From Anaerolineae bacterium (GTDB lineage: Bacteria; Desulfobacterota; Desulfobacteria; Desulfobacterales; ETH-SRB1): a stretch of 64,000 bases of DNA. Shown here in pieces: positions 5,317 through 6,653 of this stretch. The first letter of the stretch is position 1, and each line of letters opens with the position of its first letter. The DNA lies in contig DATKWZ010000034.1 in assembly GCA_035529315.1 (NCBI GenBank), forward strand, positions 1-64,000, written 5' to 3'. A program made the translations under genes and the position numbers. Under the pieces are notes generated by a model. The model made no database searches. It had not been told where the DNA came from and saw nothing but the letters and a program-made list of their open reading frames with translations.

Positions 5317-5970
5317 ATGAAACGTATATTAATATTTTGTCTAATTTCTTTTTTTGTTTTTTCCAGTTGCGCGTGGTTTGAAAAAAAGGAAGAAAAACCG
5401 GCCCAGGAGCTTGCAAGCAATGGAATGGATGATTTCAAAAGTGGAAATTATAAAAAAGCGATTGAATCATTTGAAAAGTTAAAAGACTGGTATCCTTTCA
5501 GTAAATTTGCGATCCTTGCGGAACTGAAAATTGCCGACGCTTATTACTGTTTAAAGGAATATGAAGATGCTATTTTTGCTTATGAGGAGTTTGAAAATCT
5601 TCATCCCAATAACGAGGCCATACCTTATATAATATACCGGATCGGGCTGTGTTATTTTGAACAGGTGAGCACGCCGGACAGGGATCAGAGTTCGGCGGAA
5701 AAGGCAAAATCCACATTTATACGTCTGATAAAGCAGTTCCCGCGTGATAAATACGCTCATATGGGAAAAGCATATATTGAGAAATGCGATAAAAGCCTTG
5801 CCGAAGGTGTGTTCGGGGTAGGGTTGTATTATTATCAGAGCAAACACTACAAGGGGGCGCTGGCCAGATTCAAGTCGGTTATATCCGATTACCCTGATGT
5901 TGGGGTGCATTATAAGGCGCTTCAATATATCGCTCAATGTGAAGCATTGATAGAAGAAAATAACAAATAA
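5317..5970 (+). CDS. bamD: Outer membrane assembly lipoprotein BamD
   Basis: A periplasmic lipoprotein of the BAM complex that folds beta-barrel proteins into the outer membrane. A lipoprotein signal ends at FSSC (Cys18). Tetratricopeptide-like repeats fill residues ~33-210, with the typical DFKSGNYKKAIESFEKL and KYAHMGKAYIEKC segments. At 217 residues it is slightly shorter than E. coli BamD (245). It is followed after 11 bases by the DUF523 gene, so the two are probably co-transcribed. I see no strong promoter directly upstream. Confidence 0.9.
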   Translation: MKRILIFCLISFFVFSSCAWFEKKEEKPAQELASNGMDDFKSGNYKKAIESFEKLKDWYPFSKFAILAELKIADAYYCLKEYEDAIFAYEEFENLHPNNEAIPYIIYRIGLCYFEQVSTPDRDQSSAEKAKSTFIRLIKQFPRDKYAHMGKAYIEKCDKSLAEGVFGVGLYYYQSKHYKGALARFKSVISDYPDVGVHYKALQYIAQCEALIEENNK

Positions 5971-5981
5971 AGGACATGTTA

Positions 5982-6653
5982 ATGGTAGCTGCAAGCGCAT
6001 GTCTGCTTGGTTACAACTGCAGATATGATGGGAAAAGCAAAAAAAGTGCCATTGTCTTTAAGCATCTGGCAATGGAAAGTATTCTGCCAATCTGTCCTGA
6101 ACAGTTAGGAGGGCTTGCAACCCCGAGAGATCCGTCCAGACTTGTTGACGGAGATGGTTTTGATGTGTTGGATGGAAATGCAAGAGTCGTAAACATTCAT
6201 GGAATAGACAATACAAAGGCTTTTATTGATGGAGCCTATGCTGCTTTGAATCAGATAAAAGTGCATAATGTTAAATTTTGTTTTTTAAAAGATAAAAGCC
6301 CTTCGTGAGGGGTGGGTATGTGGGAGCGGTCGCGTCCTGAGATGTCGGGCAGCACGGAATCAAACAATATAACCGGAGTTGCGGCAGCTCTTTTAATTCG
6401 GCAAGGAATAAAGATTGAAGAAATAAGCTGTATTTTAAATCAAGAAAATGGAGAAACAATCATGTCTAAAATGTGTGAAATATGCGGGAAAAAACCTTTA
6501 GTAGGAAATAATGTAAGTCATGCCCATAATTTGACAAAGCGGTATTTTAACCCAAACCTTCAAAAGGTAAGAGCATTATATAACGGGAAGGTAAAAAAAA
6601 TGGTCGTGTGTACAAGCTGTATAAAGTCAGGTCTGGTTGTCAAGGCTCCTTAA
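5982..6653 (+). CDS. DUF523 protein with probable selenocysteine (UGA at 6306), open into L28
   Basis: DUF523 is a small conserved family of unknown function. The start [19 protein letters not shown], then CPEQLGG (~38), DVLDG and KDKSPS match it. The family's next residue is Cys (SPSCG). Here that codon is TGA (6306-6308), and the same frame continues with GVGM and the conserved [13 protein letters not shown]. The family is thus intact on both sides of the UGA. A hairpin with a GGUC apical loop starts 12-13 bases after it (6321-6339). I read residue 109 as selenocysteine. The frame has no stop before rpmB, so full read-through gives 223 residues ending in all of L28. DUF523 alone ends near residue 160. 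ATG 5982 is preferred over 5976, which is too close to AGGA. Termination at the UGA would yield a 108-residue product. Confidence 0.75.
6321..6339 (+). promoter_or_regulatory. Candidate bacterial SECIS hairpin
   Basis: Downstream of UGA 6306-6308, GGGAGC (6322-6327) pairs with GC...TCCT (6332-6338, one bulged G at 6334) around the loop GGTC (6328-6331). A further U-G pair closes the base. GGUC is the apical loop of the E. coli fdhF SECIS read by SelB, and the stem begins 12-13 bases after the UGA, close to fdhF. The bulge is on the 3' side, unlike fdhF. Confidence 0.6.
6462..6653 (+). CDS. rpmB: 50S ribosomal protein L28
   Basis: A 63-residue large-subunit protein of the zinc-binding type: CEICG near the N-terminus and CTSCIKSG near the C-terminus form a four-Cys site. 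[12 protein letters not shown] and NLQKVRA are family signatures. GGAG lies ~8 bases before the ATG, so it can be initiated independently. It lies in the same reading frame as the upstream DUF523 gene with no intervening stop. Its end overlaps the end of the convergent rsh gene by four bases. Confidence 0.92.

Follow-up and report, generated by a model that had tools for sequence, protein, structure and literature searches.

A predicted selenocysteine form of the TudS (DUF523) desulfidase family in Desulfobacterales, with a covarying SECIS hairpin and cysteine orthologs at the same locus

In 2025, deep-Sep predicted that a DUF523 protein of Desulfosarcina sp. BuS5 is a selenoprotein, with no UGA homologs elsewhere and no function given (PMC12013277), and a 2026 review lists the DUF523 selenoprotein under the motif SxSUG (PMC13188914). 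TudS (PDB 6z92-6z96, 6zw9), a thiouracil desulfidase dependent on a [4Fe-4S] cluster, holds this cluster by the ligands Cys10, Cys43 and Cys104, and Glu45, Ser101 and Ser103 assist catalysis (PMC10611767). In RudS (TudS-DUF1722), substitution of the equivalent cysteines essentially abolished activity (PMC11417400).

The locus studied here lies in a stretch of 64,000 nucleotides from a sulfate reducer (contig DATKWZ010000034.1, positions 1 to 64,000), hereafter the window. Its predicted tudS product has the Pfam family and the Sec motif in common with the BuS5 protein, and in comparison with that report the present analysis adds at least 21 further UGA genomes, SECIS covariation, Sec/Cys orthologs and the link to TudS. 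With TudS it shares the fold, the three ligand positions, the catalytic Glu and the two Ser, but it carries a predicted Sec in place of one Cys ligand, followed by a 14-residue loop. RudS shares the TudS domain with it and has the equivalent essential cysteine at the position of the predicted Sec; the DUF1722 domain of RudS is missing from the window protein. The first-pass annotation, made from the sequence alone, did not count DUF523 among well-known selenoprotein families; this has to be amended, as the family has been a predicted selenoprotein since 2025 (PMC12013277, PMC13188914) and membership in it is therefore not new. A literature search naming TudS and selenocysteine together returned a sole match that concerns another enzyme, and since a search on Sec-ligated Fe-S clusters, with subscription literature outside its reach, gave nothing usable, no priority is claimed for a Sec-ligated cluster. 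What is new here is the spread, the TudS identity with the proposed ligand role, the SECIS evidence and the record of reversion.

The gene and its upstream surroundings are laid out as follows.

5317..5970, forward strand: bamD, the conserved neighbour upstream (TIGR03302 1.5e-60; synteny).
5982..6428, forward strand: tudS (DUF523, 2-thiouracil desulfurase family), with predicted Sec codon 109 and 149 codons to the place of the relatives' stop (PF04463, TudS 6z92, fold match).
6306..6308, forward strand: in-frame TGA, predicted to encode selenocysteine at the position of TudS Cys104 (alignments with TudS and orthologs).

The open frame 5982-6653 on the forward strand contains a single in-frame TGA, at codon 109 (6306-6308), which falls on the Cys position of the SPSCG motif of a DUF523/PF04463 (TudS) gene with homology on both sides, as the first-pass annotation had claimed. 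The start at 5982 is favoured over 5976 because AAGGA is better spaced from 5982. With the TGA read as Sec, PF04463 (2-thiouracil desulfurase) matches residues 3-145 at 1.4e-32 with no frame shift, the first domain finds its best match among solved structures in TudS (6z92, 8.6e-14), and the AlphaFold model (mean pLDDT 83) has TudS as its best fold match (E 6.5e-15), so that sequence family and fold both place the protein in TudS. It is the sole PF04463 gene in the whole window genome.

The downstream part of the frame belongs to another gene.

6429..6431, forward strand: TGT at the place of the close relatives' terminal tudS stop TGA, joining the tudS frame to rpmB (comparison with relatives).
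6450..6453, forward strand: GGAG, Shine-Dalgarno-like, 8 nt before the rpmB start (sequence).
6462..6653, forward strand: rpmB, ribosomal protein bL28, the conserved neighbour downstream (TIGR00009 1.5e-23; synteny).

The earlier statement that family homology continues past the TGA stands as far as residue 145 of the PF04463 match; the last 63 residues of the long frame (161-223) are not DUF523 and correspond to bL28 with its own ATG at 6462 (TIGR00009 1.5e-23), and Pfam places its ribosomal L28 match at residues 164-216. In five species of the same genus (G001, G002, G004, G005 and G006) the tudS stop TGA follows directly after EEIS, with the tudS-rpmB spacing of G004 otherwise equal to that of the window, and the end deviates in G003, where a TGA closes the frame a few codons further on. 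The two genes of the window share one frame because the terminal tudS stop reads TGT, which is either a stop loss or a sequence error. If the TGT is real, Sec readthrough would additionally give a TudS-bL28 fusion; an adaptive fusion is not favoured, as the relatives carry a stop at that place.

Conservation of the UGA was established computationally across the order. The compared genomes are all assemblies, the named ones mostly MAGs, and sampling covered relatives of the window and 390 genomes drawn across the order. Three families, f1 (the window genus together with that of Eth-SRB1), f49 and f41, account for the 22 Desulfobacterales genomes in which TGA was confirmed at the tudS codon. The UGA form was absent outside the order among the matches listed for a 395-genome draw of the phylum, and a search for a further UGA form in family f35 (86 genomes) gave three stop-bearing matches, none with TGA at the motif. 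When 84,980 species genomes were scanned for the pattern, 44 loci came up, 19 being clear TudS genes by profile, and 18 of these 19 came from records of Desulfobacterales, "Desulfobacteria" or "Deltaproteobacteria". The remaining one, in Jeotgalibacillus soli (L164:4386-4408), is a genuine TudS/DUF523 gene with TGA at the SPSCG codon; its genome has no selA match and the TGA is therefore probably a mutation or an error. The other 25 loci were discarded as chance, 21 having no TudS match and four negligible scores. Within the window, a scan of TGA read-through candidates by length only gave nothing resembling a second selenoprotein.

The machinery for Sec insertion, for which selA, selB, selC and selD had been proposed as the check, was found complete in the window genome (2.23 Mb, 97.8% complete), with tRNA-Sec at 72.5 bits, selB at 378.5, selA at 616.9 and selD at 383.7, all above cut-offs. 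SelD is known as a selenoprotein, and the selD of this genome (G000:C49:17941-18867, L049) contains one in-frame TGA and probably encodes a selenoprotein itself. Among 44 relatives, selA was present in 40 and selB above cut-off in 40, including same-genus species with a Cys tudS; the Cys forms of the genus are thus not due to loss of the pathway. As a side observation, a selA match with one internal TGA was seen in a genome with no PF04463 match (G011:C472:4-870).

Two further elements follow the UGA codon.

6321..6338, forward strand: predicted bacterial SECIS hairpin, loop GGUC at 6328-6331, 19 nt after the UGA (comparative hairpin tests; criteria in PMC13188914).
6318..6359, forward strand: 42-nt (14-codon) SECIS-bearing insert, missing from most Cys orthologs of the family, a low-confidence and probably disordered loop (gap columns 113-126 in alignment A2, pLDDT, relaxed pN/pS).

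Set against published criteria (PMC13188914), the window element has the loop GGUC, a spacing of 19, about 5 bp and one mismatch, namely A.G, with energies of -10.3 kcal/mol for the 48-nt fold and -5.5 for the 18-nt hairpin alone. Taken singly, the window hairpin has only a marginal advantage in strength over synonymous recodings (p 0.055), plain single-sequence folding of 6300-6370 does not outperform shuffles (z +1.0), and Rfam at the gathering threshold gives a tRNA as the only match in the whole window. By comparison, the predicted hairpin becomes convincing. Each of the 22 UGA orthologs has a hairpin whose loop is 4 nt long (GGUC, AGUU, AGGN or GGGU), placed 17 nt after the UGA in f41 and 19 nt in f1 and f49, and its energy in these genes averages -7.4 kcal/mol, where synonymous recodings give -2.0 +/- 0.5; at the same site the Cys orthologs (n=19) average -1.0 against -0.6. 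In 18 distinct sequences pairing is kept in 87.3% of cells with double-sided changes in six of the seven pairs, and covariation reaches 0.569 against 0.228 +/- 0.039 in shuffles, none of 500 reaching it; slid pairings do not exceed 0.351. As the sequences are related, independence is overstated in the covariation and energy tests, and there are only three UGA families; the stronger point is that the stem sequences differ among these three families. The hairpin with a GGUC loop shortly 3' of the TGA, noticed in the first-pass annotation, was thereby borne out. The AlphaFold pLDDT falls below 50 at residues 113-127, exactly the insert, and since pN/pS is about 1 inside it in the window genus, the insert seems to be constrained as RNA and not as protein.

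On either side of the insert the protein itself is conserved. Upstream of the UGA, pN/pS lies at 0.16-0.37. Past the insert it is 0.14 in the window genus; in f41 the stretch beyond the hairpin gives 0.31, and the other two frames there about 1 and 2. These ratios indicate that purifying selection at the protein level persists past the UGA in relatives, in place of the missing downstream conservation that would have spoken for an ordinary stop.

UGA/Cys pairs among DUF523 homologues, which the earlier annotation had proposed to look for, were found at the same syntenic place: trxB and bamD lie upstream, and often rpmB and relA/spoT downstream, of the Sec and Cys tudS of f1 and several other families, and on several f41 contigs the neighbours of the window were not found in the stretch examined. 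A tudS tree, with the insert columns not deliberately excluded, needs five changes of state. Three Cys species of the window genus (G002, G005 and G006) branch from within UGA species, which makes a change from Sec to Cys the likely direction in this genus. TGC stands in G005 and G006, where the 42 nt holding the hairpin are absent; G002, also TGC, has a different 42 nt absent. In all four UGA species examined, a 42-nt deletion beginning one or two bases inside the UGA codon would itself make TGC. Should G002, G005 and G006 constitute a single clade (92/80), the codon change may have preceded the deletions; the alternatives are one codon change followed by two different deletions, or a TGC in G002 made by the deletion itself. 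Most Cys orthologs have no hairpin, a near-intact one stands behind the TGC of G274, and G014, G015 and G051 retain sequence of insert length. In other families, relics of SECIS elements have been described behind Cys codons (PMC1794560), and Sec-to-Cys changes in bacteria have been called rare (PMC13188914).

Orthology and the alignment of ligands, likewise established computationally, bear on function. Cys10, Cys43 and Cys104 of TudS align with Cys7, Cys38 and the predicted Sec109, the third agreeing in position only, and Glu45, Ser101 and Ser103 align with Glu40, Ser106 and Ser108. The proposal that Sec replaces a catalytic or cluster-ligating thiol is thus supported and sharpened to the position of TudS Cys104, a [4Fe-4S] ligand; of the three cysteines named along with it, Cys7 and Cys38 occupy ligand positions and Cys13 corresponds to no TudS ligand. 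Cys13 (6018-6020) and Cys100 (6279-6281), neither a TudS cluster ligand, are invariant among the UGA forms, and Cys13 is missing in one Cys ortholog (G061).

Sec insertion, binding of Sec to the cluster and a thiouracil substrate are inferred. In view of the residue alignment, the RudS substitutions and the TudS fold match, the gene product is likely a 4-thio-UMP/thiouracil desulfidase with a predicted Sec cluster ligand. In the proposed mechanism, the hairpin 6321-6338 within the extra 14-codon loop would direct SelB and Sec-tRNA-Sec to decode UGA 6306-6308. Cys7, Cys38 and Sec109 would then bind three irons of the cluster, and the fourth would take up the sulfur from 4-thio-UMP or from a related thiouracil with the assistance of Glu40, Ser106 and Ser108, as in TudS, leaving sulfide bound at the open iron once the sulfur has been removed.

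Three other explanations were weighed against this mechanism. A decaying pseudogene, with the UGA as a genuine stop or as a sequencing error, is very improbable: the terminal tudS stop is lost in the window too, as a decaying gene might show, and an isolated TGA occurs at the same motif in Jeotgalibacillus soli, yet the same codon recurs in 22 genomes of three families, together with selection past the UGA, a covarying hairpin and conserved synteny. Least credible is a UGA read as another amino acid through an altered code or a suppressor, for although the frame is open whatever residue the TGA encodes, UGA is the ordinary terminal stop of the same gene in close relatives, the full Sec pathway is present and other orthologs have Cys.

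A selenoprotein whose Sec109 takes part in another reaction, as a redox or metal-binding selenol and not as a [4Fe-4S] ligand, is unlikely, though it deserves more weight than the former two. Thiol oxidoreductases are numerous among known selenoproteins (PMC13188914), and the clade-conserved Cys13 and Cys100 may leave room for another ligand set; against this, all three TudS ligand positions, the catalytic Glu and the two Ser are retained, and RudS becomes essentially inactive when the equivalent cysteine is replaced (PMC11417400). The earlier reading of selenocysteine at the SPSCG Cys is supported by the sel genes, the UGA/Cys orthologs, the covarying SECIS and the purifying selection, and the gene very probably encodes a TudS-family [4Fe-4S] desulfidase with selenocysteine replacing one of the three catalytic-cluster cysteines.

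Overall, a predicted and hitherto unexplained selenoprotein family gains a likely enzyme and a likely role for selenium as a ligand of a catalytic Fe-S cluster. We consider it somewhat probable that this is a natural enzyme with a Sec-held, substrate-binding catalytic [4Fe-4S] cluster and a SECIS in a removable 14-codon insert, by virtue of which Sec could revert to Cys through codon change and excision, or possibly through one 42-nt deletion. The relatives record Sec-to-Cys changes with the SECIS either kept as a relic or excised, and Sec and Cys orthologs are naturally available at one syntenic locus in one genus; with a likely enzyme at hand, the old question of the advantage of Sec over Cys would therefore become directly testable.
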